A DNA stretch of 64,000 nucleotides from Cliona cf. orientalis (taxonomy: Eukaryota; Porifera; Demospongiae; Clionaida; Clionaidae), in assembly GCA_963930775.1 (NCBI GenBank), contig OZ005704.1, positions 5,394,001 through 5,458,000 on the forward strand, read 5' to 3'. A program made the translations under genes and the position numbers. The stretch's first letter is position 1, and the number at the start of each line of letters is the position of its first letter. Positions 2,341 through 12,810 of this stretch are shown here, one piece after another. The notes beneath the pieces were generated by a model that saw only the letters and a program-made list of their open reading frames with translations, made no database searches and was not told the DNA's origin.

Positions 2341-5300
2341 ATGGAGGTGACTCTCTTTCTGCTAAGCATAGTACCATGCTTGACACTTGTTGTGGGACAG
2401 ATACCAGTAGCTCCTATGGATGTCTTACCCACATGTCGTACAAATTTTAATTTTCGTGGAGCCCATGACTGGATTCCCTACGTGAACGATACTTCTGATG
2501 GAGTACGTGGTCAAGTCAAGTGGCAAGTTCTTCTTGATCAGTATGACTATGAAAACTTATTAGGATCAGGCTTATTCCCTCCTTCACCCTGGGAGGCTCG
2601 AGATATTGATGGAGATACTATACAGGTACATACATGTATGTATAGCATATGCATGGTAATACTATTAAAGATATAAAATTATTATAACAGTTACACACGG
2701 GCCATACAGAAATAGAATAATGTGCCTGCTTTATATTATACGTACAAGATTCTATACATCCCTACACTTGCTTTTCTCATACACTTCTGATTCAATATGC
2801 AAAGCGTCGCTATATTATTTTGATATTGATCCATGGATACACTATTGATTTCCATTCCTGCATGCATGTATGTGCCCCATACTGTATAGCCGGAAATATT
2901 GGCAGGAATTAAATTTGGCAGTTGAGCCCAAAATCGCTATTATAAGAATATTGGCGGATTTAAATTTGGCAGTTCGGTACGGGATTGCCACACGTACATA
3001 TGCAAGTAGGAAATTTTGGCGGATTTTAATTGGCGGTTGTAATATAGACCGCCAAACCGCCAAATTTTCCGGCTATACTGTATATACCGTATAGCACTTA
3101 AATTTCGTGGGACTTAATTTTCGCTGTTTTCGTGGATACAGCGGCTTCCGCGAAAATTATTCAACGAAAATTTCCAATGCCCACGAGCGTACGCCCATAC
3201 CAGGCCGGAACTTCGAAATTTATTCAACGAAAACTTTGTAGAGAGCTATCCGCGAAATTTAAGTTCCGCGAAATCAAGGCGCTATACGGTAATATGTGTG
3301 TGCACGGCTACTCAAAAAGCAAGCGTAGGGATAGTGGATGTGATATGTTATCCCTATGAATCTTATTTGTGTATTTTTTGGCACTGCCTTCCTACTTCAT
3401 CCTTCAATTTATTCAATTGTTTTTTATACTTGTTACTATTCTTGTTTTAGTGCCCTCAGGGCCTGGTAGTTCACGATTGTCATTAATTTTCATCAATGCC
3501 ACCTAGCTAACTAATCACATGGGGACAGAGGCTGGGCATGAGACTATACATGCCGGTATATACATGTATGCCATGGCGACCGGTTTGCCTATTCATTGTT
3601 TAATATTAAAAATTTAATGCATAGAATTAGCTACAATTTCAAAAATTTTCTGGACTTAGCTACATCCAACCATGCTCCAGCAATAATAAAATATTATTAT
3701 AGGGAAGCAAGTACACCACTAATTCAGCATGTTTGTGTGATCTTAACCTTTGAGTCAGGCAGCTTTGGTACATGTACCATACAAACACACCGTGAGTTTA
3801 GTCTCGCGCAGCCAATACTCCTGTAAGCACAAATCCCAGGCAGTCTTTTGATAGCTATATAGCTAGGACGTCTTCTTTTGCATCACACACTATTGAACAT
3901 GCATCAATGGGGTTCTCGAGACAGCTCAGGTAACCAGTGTCTAGATTTGACCTGCGAATGAAGCCACACCCCTCATTATCTCGATGAAAATATTGTTATG
4001 AAATTAACTCGAATTACAGTACATAACTAGAGCTCTCTCGAGCACAAAACCCTCGGCGCGCTGCATGGCATTAGCTAAATGCTTCAACAGTTGCATGCAG
4101 AAAGGAGGTAGCTAAAGGGCTGGGGCCGGGGCAAGACAGGGATGAGGCTATTAAATGATGTTATACTTGCCCAGCAGTGTTATTCAAGGTGCAACGGCCC
4201 ATAGCAGCAAACATGTACAACCCTAGTGTGTTGTATCGAACTCCACACTGTGGTGTAGTCGTGTGCGGAGATTGAAGGGTGTGGCTTGCGAGACTAACTG
4301 TGGTGTAGAGATCAACTCAACTTCCCTCACTGTAGCCTAACCAACAATTCTTGGGAACTTAGCTAGAAGACTGAAGTACACTGAGCAATATGGCATGTCC
4401 AATATTTAATATTGCAACTCACTTGCCAGGTTCAAGCACTGTAATCCCATGCATGCATACAAGCCAGAGAGTCAAAGGATGCCATAAGAATACAGGAAGC
4501 TTAGCGTGGGATGACAGTGGTTTCTTTTCAACTCTAAGGCTTAGCCTTAGGGAGTAGGTAAAGGTCGTCGGGTGAAAAAAGGGGTCTAGACTGTATATAC
4601 CAGTCAGTGGAATGAGCAGCGGGATTGATACAACTGCGCATGCGCTGAGGGTTAATAGACGTACATACCGTACGTAGCGCGGAACCTATTTATCCGTTAA
4701 GTCATGCTATCGCTAGCTCGGGCAAAGTCAAGAAGCTTAGAATCGGCAAATGACGCCAAAACTGGCGAACAAAGCGTTTTTGGAGAAATCCACACAAATC
4801 ATGGGTTTGAAACGCCATAAGGAACCTTACCACACCGTAAATTGGACTCACAAACGAGGTATGTAGCAGCTAGCGTGGTAACAGACAGACAGACACACAA
4901 AACAACTATAGTAACCCTCGCGCATGCGCCGAGGGTTAATAATTATTGGTTTGGGGTGGAAGGGGGCGTGGCACTTCAGGATAGTCCCCTCCTCCAAACC
5001 ATTAATCAGGGTTTTAGGTGCAACATGGTATACTCTTTGCCGTTAATTTAGCGGAATGCTATTTAAATGTACATGTATTATCATAGCATCCAAATAGTAC
5101 CGTAGAATCCCGCGATTACGCCCCCCCCTCGCGCATAAGCCCCCCCTCCATTTTTAGCTCAAGTTCCTGCATAGGTACTTTTGTCTCGCGTAAAAGCCCC
5201 CCCCCTCCCTGACTGTAAAATGGAGCCCATAAATCAATAAAAACAGTAGCTACAGCTAGCAAACTAGCTATTTGTGTCATCTTATGCCTTACTTTGTCGT

Positions 5301-8300
5301 TTTTCTCGAGTTTTGCCCACCAAACAGCATGAGAAAGTACAGAGATCGCGCGCCCACGTGGCATTCGACGGTCGGTAATGGTCGTCACACGGAAATGTCA
5401 GGATCCCGCGTATAAGCCCCCTCCCCACTTTTGCCCAATCCTAGCATGCACAAAGGGGGGGCGTAATCGCGGGATTCTACGGTATACGTTTCCCACCTCC
5501 TCCCTCTCTCCCTCTTTTTCTCTTGCTACTCTTCTTTTGGGGAAGAAGCTGGGAGCTTTGGGGGGAAGCTTCCCCCCTGCCCCCCTCCCCAATAGATAGA
5601 AGCCTGCATCAGTGCTAGTATTGGGATTTCACTATTTTATTTTTCCTTATACAGTTTACATTGGGAAGTGGAGGTAATTGCCAGTACCAACTCAGAATTC
5701 CTACCTCAAGCTACCTAAATGAAAATTCAAACAACTGGGTGTTCACACAGTCTGTTAACCTTCTCGATGCTATAGAGATCTATGTCAATGCCACAGTCAG
5801 ATTTACTGGTTGTCATCAGCGAGCATCTGAGACTCCTCCATGTCAAAATAATTATGTAACCTTGAATAGCTATAATACAAATTCTCCACAAACGGTTGGA
5901 CAAAGAACTGATCCTAACAACTATCAACCTTATCTTGGTGATCCTGGAAGGTCTCGCCTGGAGCAGAATGTTGGTGATAGTGGTAGGATAATCATGACCT
6001 ACGCTCGGCCCCAAAATTTCAACTTTACACATTTTGGCATCCATGACACTGGCACTATTGGCGTGTTTGAGCGCCTCTTGGTGTACTATTTAGTAGCCCA
6101 AGGATATGAAGATGGCTTGGTGGTTTGCCCCAGTGTTGCCTTGCCAGCAATGGGGAGTGGAGCAACAAACACTAAAAGCTGTACATGCAAAGCAAACTCC
6201 ACTCCTACCGCTAGTCTAGTGAGGACATGTGATGAAAATGGAGTCTGTCAAGAAAGTCCGGCTTGTGAATGCAATCCTGGGTATGAGTACAACAGCACTC
6301 TAGGGATGTGTATAGGTAAGTATGATCAGCTATAACATAGTATTACATAATATCATGTGGTGGATAATTTGGGGGGTGCTAATTTCATAGAAAGTCAGAG
6401 AAAGCCCTCAGAATTTCATAATAACCGATTCACAGAATCAGGTGTACAAATGATGATATGATCAATGCACACTCTCAATTTAGCTCAGTTTCAGTTGTCA
6501 CTAAACCACCTGCAAAGAAATTTGGACAAGTGTCTAACACAGGCTAGAAGAGTAATAGTCAAAGTCCCATCACTTGGATGATAGTAGCGATTATTGCTTA
6601 CTACATGTAACACTAAGAACAGTTGGCCTAGCTGACACGATATTTTGGCACGCTTCTTCAATCTTACTACCTTAGTGTCCCAGGCAAGTGCCCACTCTCG
6701 GGTAGGCGCCCCCATTTCAATGGGTCACTGTAGCAACTTCAATACAAACTTGATCCCGGGTAAGCACCCAGTGCAGGCCAAAATCACAAGTTATGTGAAG
6801 CACCCATGGGCGCTTACCCGGGACACTACAGTAGTTATGTATCACTGTAGCTACAGAGGCAATTTTCATGGGTGGAAAGTTTCATGACTGCCAAGTCAAC
6901 CACAATAATAACAAAATTACCGTAGAAACTGGTTGTTAAGCGAACACATGGCAACAAGAAAATATGCGCTTAACAAAAAGTATGCGCTTAATTAAAAGTG
7001 CTAAAATACGGTTGGTGGGGCGTGCGTAGAGAATGTGTCGAGGGTAGAAAGGCCTACAACGGTGGCCAAGAAGCGACCAGAGAGCGTAATTCTCGACGTT
7101 TTCTTCTCCAGCCTACTTCTAGCCTTCTTTCTGGGCTCATGTAACGGATCGCTCGTCGTTCAGCTGGCTTGCTGGGCATATGCGCCTAACAAAAAGGGGT
7201 TAAGCTCGCACAAAACTATGCACTTAATAAAAAGTATGCGCTTAACTACGAGCAGCGCTTAACAACCAGTTTCTACGGTAATTTATTAGCACCCCACTAA
7301 AGTTATCCGCCACATAATATTATTTATAGTCGATAATAATTAAACATCCATGGCTTTGAACTTTCTAGGTTGTGGTATGGGAACCTACAAGACTAGTTTG
7401 TCCAGCACAGCTCGCTGCATTCCATGTCCTGGCAACAGTATGACTATCAACAGTTCTTCCACTGTGTGTGATTGTATCCGGGGAACAGTCCGGTGTCCAT
7501 CAAGGCCAGATGATGCATGCCAACTCTTCGATGATTTCTTTGCAGGTAAGGAATTGAGCTCTTATTACTACTAGTTAGTATCCTTACATGTATTCGTGTA
7601 CTTTTCATCCCTACTTAATTTGGGTTTTCTATTTATCTTGCTTATCAATACAGTGGCCGAGAGGGACACTGCCGCGGCAGCCCAAGTCGTATTGGGGCCG
7701 CCTGAAAGCCGCTGTTGGCCGCCCATCAGCTGCGGCTGGCCACCTCGGTTCAGCCACGCCCACCAAAACGTTTAAAAAATGGTTATTCAGTTGCAAATGG
7801 TTAAGTGGACAATATTAGGTGTGGTCTAGATCTTGTGATTGTTGGAATTCAGCCCTCCGCATTTTTATCCAGAAATAACAAAATGCTTCCGGCAGTGGTG
7901 GGAGTATCGAGAGGGAAAACATTTATGTGACGTATACCACCCTTTCATTATCAGTGATGATCGTTCTCGTGCTTATAATTATAGCAGATATCGAAAGTGT
8001 ATGCTTAAACCCTGCGGTGGGCATAGTACTGCGTGCGCATGGGCAGAAAGCATGCGATTGATAGCGTGATCAACAAGCATTTAGCCCCTGTAACCAGTAT
8101 CAATTGAGTCTAAATGAGGCCGAGTCCGTTTGTTTTGCTGTATTTGATCGCCATTATAACCCACCGTGCCCAGATGCCTATGCATATTATGTGGACGATG
8201 TCAAGGCAGACCGACAAACTGACCCCTTGGGTATGCGTGCGGGATAATGGTCTAGTTTACCATGCAGTCGTAAGCTAGAGAATAATTTTTCAAACAAATT

Positions 8301-8697
8301 GGCGGGCGGGCTGGCCAGCCGCAGCCGATATGCAGCCCTTTTGGCAGCCAACGGCAGCTTTCGGGCAGCCCACAGCGGCTTGGGCTGCCACGGCAGTGTC
8401 CTTCTCAGCCACCGTATATCGATAATTGTTACAGTAGTAGCTATGTTGGTGGCAAGAGCTATAGGGTTAAAATATCACTGCTATATATATACCATACACT
8501 ATGACCAATTATTGTTAAAATTATCTCAAATTCCAGGAGGTGAAGTTGATTGTGAAACTGAGTCATCCCAGAGCAGTGGTGGTTTAAATCAAGCCGGTGC
8601 TATAGCTGTTACATTCTTTGTTACATTGATTATAACTGCTGTCCTCACCACCCTGGTGGTGTTCTTACTGCTATATTTCCTCATAATGAAGAAATAG
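2341..8697 (+). CDS. Eph-receptor-like ectodomain protein A, kinase-less, membrane-anchored
   Basis: Four exons: 2341-2625, 5655-6315, 7369-7545, 8537-8697 (427 codons, phases agree throughout). A signal peptide covers about residues 1-20. The region about 30-260 resembles the Eph ligand-binding jelly roll: an NNW motif, paired cysteines around the extended loop, and a C-terminal FGIHDTGTIGVFERLLVYY strand comparable to the Eph strand before its KKCP. A cysteine-rich part with an EGF-like segment (CECNPGYEYN) follows, then a GCC2/GCC3-type module (CIPCPGNS, about 320-360) as in Eph receptors. A Ser-rich stalk leads to a transmembrane helix (about 396-425) ending in two lysines and the stop. 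No kinase, SAM or PDZ-binding tail exists. It probably acts on the cell surface as an ephrin-binding decoy or adhesion protein (inference). It is a tandem duplicate of the gene at 9934. Alternative: a sponge jelly-roll family only distantly related to Eph. Confidence 0.75.
2879..3083. repeat. Foldback element, TGTATAGCC ends, intron 1 of Eph-like A
   Basis: About 205 bp palindromic element. The left end reads ACTGTATAGCCGGAAATATT and the right end is its near complement (AATTTTCCGGCTATACTGTA). The interior repeats the self-complementary word TTGGCGG/CCGCCAA several times. It is a diverged copy of the element at 45855-46079. It has no coding capacity and is probably a non-autonomous DNA transposon (MITE). 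Confidence 0.75.
3085..3291. repeat. Foldback element with TACCGTATAGC ends
   Basis: Starts TACCGTATAGCACTT and ends GGCGCTATACGGTA. The interior contains several TTTCGYG/CGCGAAA words on both arms. It directly abuts the preceding element, so two foldback elements lie back to back in intron 1 of Eph-like gene A. It shares its terminal 11 bp with 45855-46079 and 47775-47985, though the interiors differ. Confidence 0.75.
3293..3450. repeat. Single arm of the long-TIR foldback family (see 32891-33269)
   Basis: The stretch containing AGCAAGCGTAGGGAT, then CTTATTTGTGTA and TTCAATTTATTCAATTG, matches the right arm of the 379-bp foldback element at 32891-33269. Only one arm is present, so this is a solo or truncated copy. 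Confidence 0.6.
4680..4950. repeat. Dispersed repeat ending CGCGCATGCGCCGAGGGTTAA
   Basis: This stretch (GTCAAGAAGC ... GCGTTTTTGGAGAAATCC ... GGTATGTAGCAGCTAGCG ... GCGCATGCGCCGAGGGTTAA) is paralleled at about 21430-21805 in the same order, including an ACAGACA microsatellite. A more distant relative ends near 35234. No coding potential was recognised. Confidence 0.6.
5098..5484. repeat. Foldback element, TACCGTAGAATCCCGCG ends
   Basis: 387-bp inverted-repeat element just upstream of exon 2 of Eph-like gene A. The left terminus TACCGTAGAATCCCGCGATT is matched by the right terminus AATCGCGGGATTCTACGGTA. C-rich words such as CGCGNATAAGCCCCC occur on the left and internally, with G-rich complements on the right. 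It shares the TACCGTA heptamer with other elements here; the rest of the terminal repeat is unrelated. Confidence 0.8.
6668..6833. repeat. Foldback element, GTGTCCCGGGTAAGCGCCCA type
   Basis: Begins TACCTTAGTGTCCCAGGCAAG and ends CGCTTACCCGGGACACTACAGTA, in intron 2 of Eph-like gene A. Related copies lie at 20136-20266, 39074-39249 and, more degraded, about 34390-34478 and 53310-53496. Copies vary most in the middle; the outer 25 bp of each arm is conserved. Confidence 0.75.
6918..7280. repeat. Foldback element, TACCGTAGAAACTGGTTGTTAAGCG type
   Basis: Ends are TACCGTAGAAACTGGTTGTT and AACAACCAGTTTCTACGGTA, perfect complements. Inside, words like TATGCGCTTAA recur on both arms. A second, interrupted copy lies at 36986-37846 and helps define the insertion nested in that copy. 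Confidence 0.85.
7649..8415. repeat. 767-bp foldback element with about 35-bp inverted ends
   Basis: The left end (CAGTGGCCGAGAGGGACACT, continuing to GCAGCCCAAG) is matched by the right end (CTTGGGCTGCC through to CTTCTCAGCCACCG). Both sides carry a flanking TA, which fits TA target-site use. It fills intron 3 of Eph-like gene A and is absent from gene B, so it probably inserted after the duplication or was lost from B. The central open stretches have no recognisable protein. Confidence 0.75.
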
Positions 8698-9933
8698 AAA
8701 TTATTTTTATTGTGTGTGCTATAAATCAATATTATTATTATGTAATGCTGAGACAGTGGCCTTTTCTATTTTCATACATGTACTGAGAGTATAATTAAAA
8801 TTAAATTTAATATTATTATAACAGTGTTTGCTTTATTTAAACGTAATAATAAATAATTATAGTTGAGCCTGGTCTTAAGAGCTGCTGTATACTACTGGCA
8901 TTATATACTCAACAATAATTATTATTTCTAGCCTGAGACTGGCCTTAACGTACAGTGCATACTGCACGAGAAATGATCAAGGGCCTGGAGTATGTATACA
9001 AATTGAAGCTGGATGAATTTCATTGATTAACAGGACAAGAGCCCCAGCTCAGTATCCAAGTTATCCTTGGGCCTACCCTTTCTTTTAGCCAGAAACTTCC
9101 ACAATTAATACTTGCACTGTACATAGCCTTGGGGCTATTGGTGTAGGTACCACTGAGAATTATTAGCCTTTTAATAATTTGTACTACACACATGCACTTA
9201 GTCTATAGCTATAGTATCTATAAAATTTAATGATTTTTGAGGGAAAAAATTTAATAGCTAAGTTTTGTGCACTGTAGAAATTTGATTTGCCAATAAAATT
9301 AATGTATAGTGAATGAGTGAAATCCTCGCAACATAATTATTATTAATGTGCTTTCCAATGAGCACCGGTATTAAATGGGCGTCAACGCATTGTGCAATTC
9401 TTGAGATTGCGCAGCGATCCTGGATCCTGAGCCCCTCCCCCCGTGGGCTAGACTTCTGTGGCTGTTTTGCATACTCCACCCGTCCAAAGGAAGGTGGAAT
9501 CATAGACGGTATAGCTTTCAGTCTCACAAACTTACGACCAAGACAGAGGATAAGAGATAAATCAAGGTGAGCCACACAAAACAATGTCTCGTAAAAAAGG
9601 GCCTATGGGCGTGGCACCTTACCTTGGCTCAAATTAGAGGGCGGGCCAACATTAATTAATTTCAATATATTTGGCACTTGCACTGTTTAGACTTCATTAG
9701 TAGCCCTAATTAGCACTAGTTTTAACTTCCTATTGCACGTGCTCATGATTTTCCTGTAATCATATTATTGGTGGAAATGGGCAGCACATTATAAATACAC
9801 AACCTGGAATCTCAGCCTGCTTGTGTGATTAGTTGCCTCGCACCAGCATTTATAGCATGTACGCCAAATTTGTATGGTCAAATAGAATGCAGCAGGATCT
9901 ATACGATCATCATTTCCCCCACGGTAGGTCAAC

Positions 9934-12810
9934 ATGGAGGTGACTCTCTTCATACTAAGCATAGTACCATGCTTTGCACTTGTTGTGGGACAGATACCAG
10001 TAGCTCCTATGGATGCCTCAACCACATGTCGTACAAATTTTATGTTTCATGAAGCCCATGACTGGATTCCCTACGTGAACGATACTTCTGATGGAGTACG
10101 TGGTCAAGTCAAGTGGCAAGTTCTTCTCGATCAGTATGACTATGAAAACTTAATAGGGCCAGGCTTGATCCCTGCTTCACCCTGGGAGGCTCGAGATGTT
10201 GATGGAGATGGTGTTCAGGTAAGTATAGCATGTGTAGTAACTTTTATTATGTAATTGATCATATTTTCTATCATACCTCGGTGCTAGTGTTGGTATTCCA
10301 CTGTTTATTGTGCTTGGACGCCATTAAATTTTCCTATGCAGATCACATTGGGAAGCGGAGATAATTGCCAGTACACACTCAGAATCCCTACCTCAAGCTA
10401 CCTAAATGCAAATTCAAACAACTGGGTGTTCACACAGCCTGTTAACCTTCTCGATGCTGTAGAGATCTGTGTCAATGCCACAATCAAACTTGATCGTTGT
10501 CATCAGCGAGCATCTGCGAACCCTCCATGTCAAAAGAATTATGTAACCTTGTATAGCTATAGTACAAATTCTCCACAAACGGTTGAACAAAGAACTGATC
10601 CTAACAACTATCAACCTTATCTTGGTGATCCTGTAAGGTCTCGCCTGGTGCAGAATGTTGGTGACAGTGGTAGGATAATCATGACCTACGCTCGGCTCCA
10701 AAATTTCAACTTTACGCATTTTGGCATCCAAGACACTGGCACTATTGGCGTTTTTGAGCGCCTCTTGGTGTACTATAGAGTAGCCCAGGGATATGAAGAT
10801 GGCTTGGTGGTTTGCCCCAGTGTTGCCTTGCCAGCAATGGGGAGTGGAGCAATGAACACTAAAAGCTGTACATGCAAAGCAAACTCCACTCCTACCGCTA
10901 GTCTAGTGAGGACATGTGATGAAAATGGAGTCTGTCAAGAAAGTTCGGCTTGTGAATGCAATCCTGGGTATGAGTACAACAGTACTCTAGGGATGTGTCT
11001 AGGTACGTATGATCTGTTTCATTATATAAAAGTATGGCAGATAAGTTTTAGGCATAGGCGTAGGAAGATGCTGAAGGTTGGGGGGGCTGAATGTACAATT
11101 GCGCGCGAAGCGCGTGCAAATTTTTATGACCACGCCTACTTTGTGTCAAACCACGCCCATTTTTGCACGCTCGAGGCTGCTATCTCGATGAAAAAACGAA
11201 CTGTAGGTCAAGTAGAATAGATTTGGCAGCTACTGAGGCACATTTTATTCATAATCAGGCCAGGTAAGAAATCTGTGTTATAATAATACTGGGCTAAGAG
11301 AACTTCCCAAGGGTTTGCTACTCTGAGAACATGGACTGACACTACCAACAAGGGGGGGCGCCAGCCCCTGGAGCCTCCTCGTTTCCTACGCCACTGTTAG
11401 GGGTGCTGATTTTGTGGAAAGGCATAGTCTCATACACATTACGTGCTTTTTGGGGCACACAAGCCATGTGATTTTCGTGCATAACAATTACCGGTAATGC
11501 ATTTTGGCATGGCAACACATCAAGCACTCTCACACGTAATGGTTGGGTATAGCACAGTACTAGTATCATACTATGATATGATAATCACACGTAAGCCACA
11601 TCGCATGAATCATAATATTGGCGTATCACTATTCAGAAACAAGCCCCAGATAGTGCTCGATGTGTACCAGACCTTCCCTCTTTGAGGGCGGGATCTGCAT
11701 GGGGATGAGACTAGATCGGTCAGAGAAAACTCTCAGAATTTAATATTGTGATAACCAGTTAGCCCCCAGTCCAGGGCCCTGCACTGCACCAACAATGATG
11801 TATTCAATACACGCTCTCTAGCTATCTGGCTTGGTTTCTTTTTGTCAAAGAGCCACTAATCTTCTGTAAACAAGCAAGAATATAGCATGGACTAGAATTA
11901 TGATCAAAGATGCCATCACACCCCACTAAAGTATCTATAGCTATACCATACAGTTACCATAATAGTAAACATGACTTTGAACTTTCTAGGTTGTCGTATG
12001 GGAACCTACAAGACTAGTTTGTCCAGCTCAGCTCCCTGCATTCCATGTCCTGGCAACAGTATGACCATCAACAGTTCTTCCACTGTGTGTGATTGTATCC
12101 GGGGAACAGTCCGCTGTCCATCAAGGCCAGATGATGCATGTCAACTCCTCGATGATTTCTTTGCAGGTAGGGGATTGAACTGCACCAAGTTAACCTCTTA
12201 AAAATCCCGAATTTTGGAGAGGTAGATAGTACATTCTGTGGTAGGCTAATTGTTAGCCCCATGCATATGGCGTATTTAGGCTAGATGGGACCTCGTTCAA
12301 TAGTGTAACCAGGCTACCACCATTGAATATCATGCACTCAATGACCTATATAGGCCATGCAGCCCTACACCTTGTTCAAGTGCTATCCAGAACCCGGCTT
12401 ACTTTTAATCACTTTGCTAAAGTCCCGTTTACACATACAAGCTTTGACTAAAGTGCTTTGGAAGGCACTTCACAGGCCCTTATCCAGCTTATGTAATTGT
12501 ACAAACTGTCCACATGTAAACGCTCTAAGCTGATCCCTATTTTGGAGATCACAAGATTTATCTTTTGAAAATTCAAAATACCCCCCCCCCCCGGCACTAT
12601 ACCACACTGCATGTGACAGTGTAGACTGAATTGAATCATGATTTACATTCCTCTTATATAGATCAGTGCGAGGCTTCATCCCAAGGCGAAATTTCAACCC
12701 AGAGTGAAACTTCATCCCAAGGTGAAACTTCATCCCAGGATGGTAGCAGTGCTGGTGTGGGCCAAGTTATAATTACCTTCTTTGCATTGATTATGATGAT
12801 AATAATATAA
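9934..12810 (+). CDS. Eph-receptor-like ectodomain protein B, kinase-less, eroded anchor
   Basis: Tandem paralogue of the gene at 2341, with four exons of matching phase: 9934-10218, 10342-11002, 11990-12166, 12662-12810 (423 codons). The first three exons are the same lengths as in A (285, 661, 177 nt). Signal peptide, Eph ligand-binding-like jelly roll, EGF-like segment and GCC2/GCC3 module are all conserved. Exon 4 differs. The Ser/Thr/Gln stalk is expanded by an imperfect repeat around SQGETS, and the hydrophobic segment VIITFFALIMMIII stops after 14 residues at an AT-rich microsatellite. A matching hydrophobic stretch containing ALVVF, like TLVVF in A, continues downstream in another frame. 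The product may be poorly anchored, secreted or lipid-anchored (inference). No kinase domain follows. Introns here are shorter than in A. Confidence 0.72.
11036..11400. repeat. G/C-rich inverted element in intron 2 of Eph-like B
   Basis: Begins around GCATAGGCGTAGGAAG and ends around CTTTCCTACGCCACTG-like sequence at about 11385-11398. It carries long G runs at both sides and a central GCGCGCGAAGCGCG palindrome. It resembles the TTAA-flanked element at 37355-37824, which has TTCCTATGCCACTG at its end and a CGCGCTACGCGCG palindrome. Boundaries are approximate. Confidence 0.5.
12672..12738 (+). repeat. Coding minisatellite in stalk of Eph-like B
   Basis: About three to four imperfect copies of an 18-bp unit resembling GGTGAAACTTCATCCCAA, in frame in exon 4. 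They encode repeats of the type (S/T)QGETS. Gene A has only a short ESSQSSGG stalk at this position, so the repeat lengthened the juxtamembrane stalk in B. Confidence 0.75.

Follow-up and report, generated by a model that had tools for sequence, protein, structure and literature searches.

Canonical Eph receptors carry kinase and SAM domains inside the cell, and two neighboring genes of the sponge Cliona cf. orientalis, here called A and B, raise the question of whether an Eph-type ectodomain can serve without them. Both genes lie in the stretch C16:5394001-5458000 (contig OZ005704.1, assembly GCA_963930775.1), whose 64,000 nucleotides are referred to as the window; genome searches covered the 216.8-Mb assembly of 149 contigs, in which Wnt matches at three loci mark the genome as that of an animal. 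The evidence on balance favors the view that A and B are tandem, membrane-anchored Eph-family ectodomain genes that lack a signaling domain and act independently of a kinase. They are Eph-derived but fall short of being Eph receptors proper.

Gene A (2341-8697, 427 amino acids) and gene B (9934-12810, 423 amino acids) are both spliced models on the + strand, with four exons and GT-AG introns of phases 0, 1, and 1. The phases agree because exons 1 to 3 have the same lengths in both genes (285, 661, and 177). The order of parts is also the same: signal peptide, ligand-binding domain (LBD) interrupted by intron 1, EGF-like region, GCC2-like module, stalk, and terminal hydrophobic segment. Exon 1 (2341..2625 in A, 9934..10218 in B) encodes the signal peptide and the N-terminal part of the LBD; in A, residues 1 to 24 are hydrophobic and exon 1 of a paralogue matches, while B is assigned from its splice model and translation. 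Exon 2 (5655..6315 in A, 10342..11002 in B, 94% DNA identity) encodes the main Eph-type part of the LBD and the EGF-like region, and exon 3 (7369..7545 in A, 11990..12166 in B, 96% DNA identity) encodes the GCC2/Ephrin_rec_like cysteine-rich module. The two proteins share an identical set of six N-glycosylation sequons. The splice models thus bear out the preliminary description of this DNA, which had reported a pair of genes with shared phases and stop codons after their terminal segments.

The two genes end differently in exon 4 (8537..8697 in A, 12662..12810 in B). In A, the stalk leads into a long hydrophobic helix (residues ∼393 to 425), which is followed in the translation by two lysines and the stop codon, exactly as first described, so that A is predicted to be a type I transmembrane protein whose tail consists of these lysines alone. 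In B, a Ser/Glu-rich stalk precedes a terminal hydrophobic segment of 14 to 20 residues, and the protein ends on SAGVGQVIITFFALIMMIII with the stop directly after it. A membrane helix had been claimed for both genes; the claim holds for A, but the segment of B is too short to be called one safely. Since this hydrophobic run is short, stands at the very end of the protein, and is preceded by small residues (DGSSAG), B is probably anchored by glycosylphosphatidylinositol (GPI). With two residues (A) or none (B) after the hydrophobic segment, there is no room for a SAM domain, and no genome search for SAM was made.

The absence of a kinase exon downstream of the pair, also part of the preliminary description, was confirmed with a hidden Markov model (HMM) built from the kinases of this genome (16 domains) and run against six-frame open reading frames of at least 25 residues from the window and the other loci. 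It retrieved nothing up to an E value of 10 in the whole window, including the ∼51 kb downstream of B. In the first set searched, the only matches were to an opposite-strand kinase beside a C17 paralogue. A genome scan with PF07714 scored only 119 of its 2511 candidates and is therefore of no use for judging proximity. As a positive control, the same HMM recovered an Eph-type kinase on C8, 16 kb downstream of another LBD.

This C8 locus provides the contrast to A and B within the same genome. The LBD at C8:5520731 lies on the same strand as the kinase exons and ∼16 kb upstream of them; the interval, of which 5 kb is unread, holds an FN3 exon (27.5 bits, cut-off 25) and a transmembrane exon, with an EphA2_TM match at C8:5537266 (31.1 bits, cut-off 28.9) followed by the kinase exons. 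When these were joined by hand, there were 44 matches to solved sequences at E ≤ 1e-60, of which 43 bear an Eph name. The top entry by E value is EGFR (2.1e-92, with no single stretch passing), and the next is EphB1 (6.3e-75). The LBD and the kinase are probably, though not certainly, one gene. A second Eph-like kinase lies at C8:1177-1181 kb, with an EphA2_TM score of 25.7 bits (under the cut-off) and no LBD listed nearby; its upstream part is unread.

The Eph homology of the A and B ectodomains is well supported at the level of sequence. The cysteine-rich module reaches the Ephrin_rec_like cut-off of Pfam in both genes (A, 23.1 bits; B, 24.5 bits; cut-off, 23.1), and the EGF-like matches are weak and under the cut-off. 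A phmmer search with A gave colinear matches to EphB2 (E = 3.3e-6) and EphA4 (E = 7e-6) across the LBD and the cysteine-rich region, a profile of ten exon-2 sequences matched EphA4 with an E value of 2.4e-6, and a profile of the clade containing A and B matched the other LBD clade of the same genome with a probability of 98.2 and an E value of 3.6e-14. In the search against the ephrin receptor LBD family itself, A and B stay below the cut-off (see below) but three paralogues with 46 to 48% identity to A exceed it (C6:10.717, C6:10.762, and C17:7.466 Mb); the LBD frame of a further paralogue, at C6:10.700 Mb, scores 22.8 bits against a cut-off of 27. The AlphaFold2 model of A exon 2 covers 220 of the 427 residues, with a predicted local distance difference test score of 70 and a predicted template modeling score of 0.61. 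All 37 Foldseek matches of this model at E ≤ 0.001 are Eph receptors, in agreement with the Eph-type jelly roll first proposed; their root mean square deviations are large (6 to 12 Å) and their TM-scores modest. The concurrence of phmmer, profiles, paralogues, and fold places the LBD in the Eph family despite its Pfam scores. A generic galactose-binding protein with a GCC2 module was considered and ruled out, as every Foldseek match at this threshold is an Eph and colinearity continues through the cysteine-rich region.

The cysteines of the LBD are conserved in part. Eph LBDs contain the disulfides C105-C115 and C70-C188 (EphA2 numbering), as given in the available text of PMC6485061. In A and B, the first pair has its aligned counterparts in Cys148 and Cys158, so that the cysteines are kept and their pairing is predicted by alignment. 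Cys104 and Cys253 sit a few residues from the columns of the second and could substitute for it, with an alignment that is gapped near Cys104. No fn3 match was obtained in A or B with Pfam at E ≤ 1, and exon 3 leads straight into the stalk/helix exon. An FN3 domain hidden in intron 3 was also considered and rejected, as neither intron 3 contains an FN3-like frame by eye. Intron 3 of A, which does not align with intron 3 of B, holds a 770-bp element (7648-8417) with inverted ends (49-bp arms, 84% complementary), and intron 1 of A contains more short inverted-repeat elements (3085-3291 and 5098-5484).

A and B are not the only genes of this kind. Outside the window, 27 places with an LBD were found and grouped by hand, including two apparent fragments (C16:2.73 Mb and C1:10.507 Mb). 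Ten could be read through a helix and a tail to a stop codon without a kinase in the sequence covered, one has a kinase nearby, and 16 were not read to an end. The ten kinase-less genes, which are a new observation, comprise six of the A/B clade (C6:10688, 10700, 10717, and 10752 kb; C17:7459 and 7465 kb), the other four belonging to a second LBD clade (C4:10111, 10123, and 10228 kb; C1:652 kb). At C4:10111, the link between the helix exon and the LBD is presumptive. The sequence read past the stop ranges from 50 to 8840 bases, and the next 3 kb at C4:10228 is covered by an overlapping locus; where little sequence follows, the tail may splice toward a kinase exon farther on. None of the other genes read is as reduced as A and B, which have no FN3 and a tail of KK or none. 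An fn3 domain was confirmed in one C6 paralogue frame (34.8 bits, cut-off 25) and, judged by pattern, seems present in the other C6 and C17 genes and in C8:4865. Tails are short in the A/B clade, that of C17:7465 ending in NPIYNKDSEK.

Some of these relatives show further features of their own. The tail exon of the kinase-less C4:10228 kb gene, which has an Eph LBD, contains four repeats (EEVYYATV, EEAYYATV, EEAYYTAV, and QEVYYSTI) that we take to resemble immune-receptor tyrosine motifs. The FN3-transmembrane regions of C1:652 kb and C8:5.52-5.54 Mb are alike by eye, and Eph kinase exons then follow on C8 whereas a short tyrosine-rich tail and a stop follow on C1; the two may thus show the loss of a kinase directly. 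C6 paralogues such as C6:10688 kb have an immunoglobulin-like looking segment (LTC...GSYRCEV) between FN3 and the membrane segment, for which Pfam gave no confirmation, and the cysteine-rich frame of C4:10231 had no Pfam match. No usable exon 2 came from C16:2.73 Mb or C8:5.472 Mb, and C1:10.507 Mb gave exon 1 alone; these three, with C6_10717, C6_10748, and C1_652, are omitted from the alignment of 23 rows. In the midpoint-rooted tree of 25 rows (C1_652 omitted, C6_10748 partial, bootstrap unsettled), A and B join the C6 and C17 genes (95/88) along a long branch, and C8:4865 and C8:4850 fall outside this group.

The comparison of A with B reveals an unusual pattern of divergence. Exons 1 to 3 are 92 to 96% identical, and introns and flanks become nearly unalignable 10 to 20 bases away, which rules out uncollapsed alleles. 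In contrast, long matches in seven pairs of C6/C17 paralogues cross introns at ∼83 to 99%. This difference suggests homogenization confined to exons, such as gene conversion, between older duplicates. Over 374 codons, dS is 0.075 and dN is 0.062, giving a dN/dS (omega) of 0.83 for exons 1 to 3; the two parts of exon 2 give 0.93 (LBD) and 0.66, the EGF-like plus GCC2 region gives 0.47, and exon 3 gives 0.38 (few changes). Against the one C6 paralogue used for comparison with both genes (C6:10700), A has an LBD omega of 0.16 at a dS of 2.3, which is near saturation, and the comparison with B and both EGF parts are saturated. Among seven C6/C17 paralogues, five of which belong to the ten genes read to a kinase-less end, LBD omega is 0.16 to 0.56 in 21 of 21 pairs.

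Several points weigh against the view that A and B are functional Eph-family ectodomain genes. Their Ephrin_lbd scores are 15 and 17 bits, under the 27-bit cut-off, and the window is not among the matches of the genome-wide Ephrin_lbd search at E ≤ 0.001. The AlphaFold2 model is of middling quality, and the fold match is not independent, because the alignment behind it included the clearer Eph LBDs of the same genome. Neither protein has a cysteine in the columns of EphA2 C70 and C188, and the GPI reading of B was made by eye. The LBD omega between A and B (residues 20 to 250, small counts) is 0.98, which fits relaxed constraint and diversification equally well. Lastly, a PF00812 search of the genome found no ephrin above the cut-off, the best E value of 0.51 falling in a 414-amino-acid frame that is no ephrin by eye; detection of sponge ephrins required iterated custom profiles, according to the available text of PMC6485061.

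These observations bear on three other explanations, of which the most serious, although it is tentative, is that A and B are recognition receptors, with an Eph-type scaffold co-opted for self, cell, or microbe recognition and a non-ephrin partner. The failure to find an ephrin, the clustering of LBD genes on C6, C17, C4, and C8, the clade-specific alteration of LBD cysteines, and the varied tails of the relatives, including the repeated YYATV-like motifs, all agree with this; the paralogue LBD omega below 1 in all 21 pairs does not, keeping in mind that these are averages in which selection at single sites could hide. The high omega values between A and B, the extra cysteine of B at residue 138, and the stops that shorten the helix of B inside an AT-rich ATA/ATG run could instead mean that one or both genes, B above all, are duplicates decaying toward pseudogenes. 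This is improbable, as the 374 shared codons contain no stop or frameshift in either gene, all six sequons are retained, the LBD of A is under long-term constraint, and omega is low, on few changes, in exon 3 and in the EGF-like plus GCC2 region. Very unlikely is the third explanation, in which the pair would be just the 5' portion of normal Eph kinase genes, the kinase exons having been lost by misassembly or being joined by long-range splicing: C8 does carry LBD, FN3, transmembrane, and Eph-kinase exons on one strand, but no kinase match occurs in the ∼51 kb downstream of B, an Arf-family gene comes next, and relatives on other contigs have the same kind of end. That next + strand gene had been named ARL2, and the Arf match in its frame upholds the name at the level of the family.

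The preferred explanation is therefore that of kinase-independent ectodomain proteins. Neither protein is likely to signal alone, since neither has a cytoplasmic domain. A and B would attach to a partner, either on their own cell or on a neighboring one, and would serve in adhesion or docking with no need of a kinase; alternatively, by analogy with EphA7-T1, they may be dominant-negative or decoy partners of the kinase-bearing Eph of this genome. Kinase-independent surface binding in one of these forms (adhesion, docking, or decoy) is the most likely function. A broader reading, for now speculative, is that this genome has divided the Eph receptor into a large germ-line set of genes in which the ectodomain is kept and the kinase is swapped for other endings, the ectodomains acting as a contact- or self-recognition repertoire and not as kinase switches. 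The endings would then range, with the same reserve, from none in A and a GPI-like one in B to short tails that are basic or bear NPxY and to tails with repeated YYxxV/I motifs, like the inhibitory or activating tails of immune receptors. Genes that lack a kinase and stand on long contigs would imply that the ectodomain was used independently and free of a kinase early in animals, which bears on the question of whether Eph/ephrin contact started as adhesion or as signaling. No kinase-less Eph gene family in sponges is described in the titles and abstract openings of the open-license PubMed Central literature, among the matches listed.

With the canonical Eph receptor tyrosine kinases (Ephrin_lbd, Ephrin_rec_like, fn3, PK_Tyr_Ser-Thr, and SAM), A and B share the LBD followed by an EGF-like/GCC2-like region, and A also shares the membrane anchor. 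They differ in having no FN3, kinase, SAM, or cytoplasmic tail and no cysteines in the C70/C188 columns. Eph receptors are described as kinase active from sponges to humans in the accessible portion of PMC6993872, where EphB6 and EphA10 resemble A and B in not signaling by kinase activity of their own; these two still have a kinase domain, which is inactive, and are believed to signal via other Ephs, whereas A and B have no intracellular domain. LBD sequences without a kinase are also reported in the available part of PMC6485061, which gives 100 sponge LBD sequences (15 full length), treats those that lack domains as fragmentary or partial models, and names an LBD-fn3 sequence from the choanoflagellate Salpingoeca urceolata; in contrast to such fragments and to an LBD plus fn3, the A/B-type models stand on long contigs and stop after the helix. 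EphA7-T1 is likewise an Eph ectodomain whose very short tail carries no kinase: according to the text available from PMC7717530, this tail is 11 residues long, and the isoform pairs with the full-length receptor in vitro and dampens it; a link to adhesion is also reported. It differs in being spliced from a kinase gene and in keeping the full ectodomain, whereas A and B are genes of their own and lack FN3.

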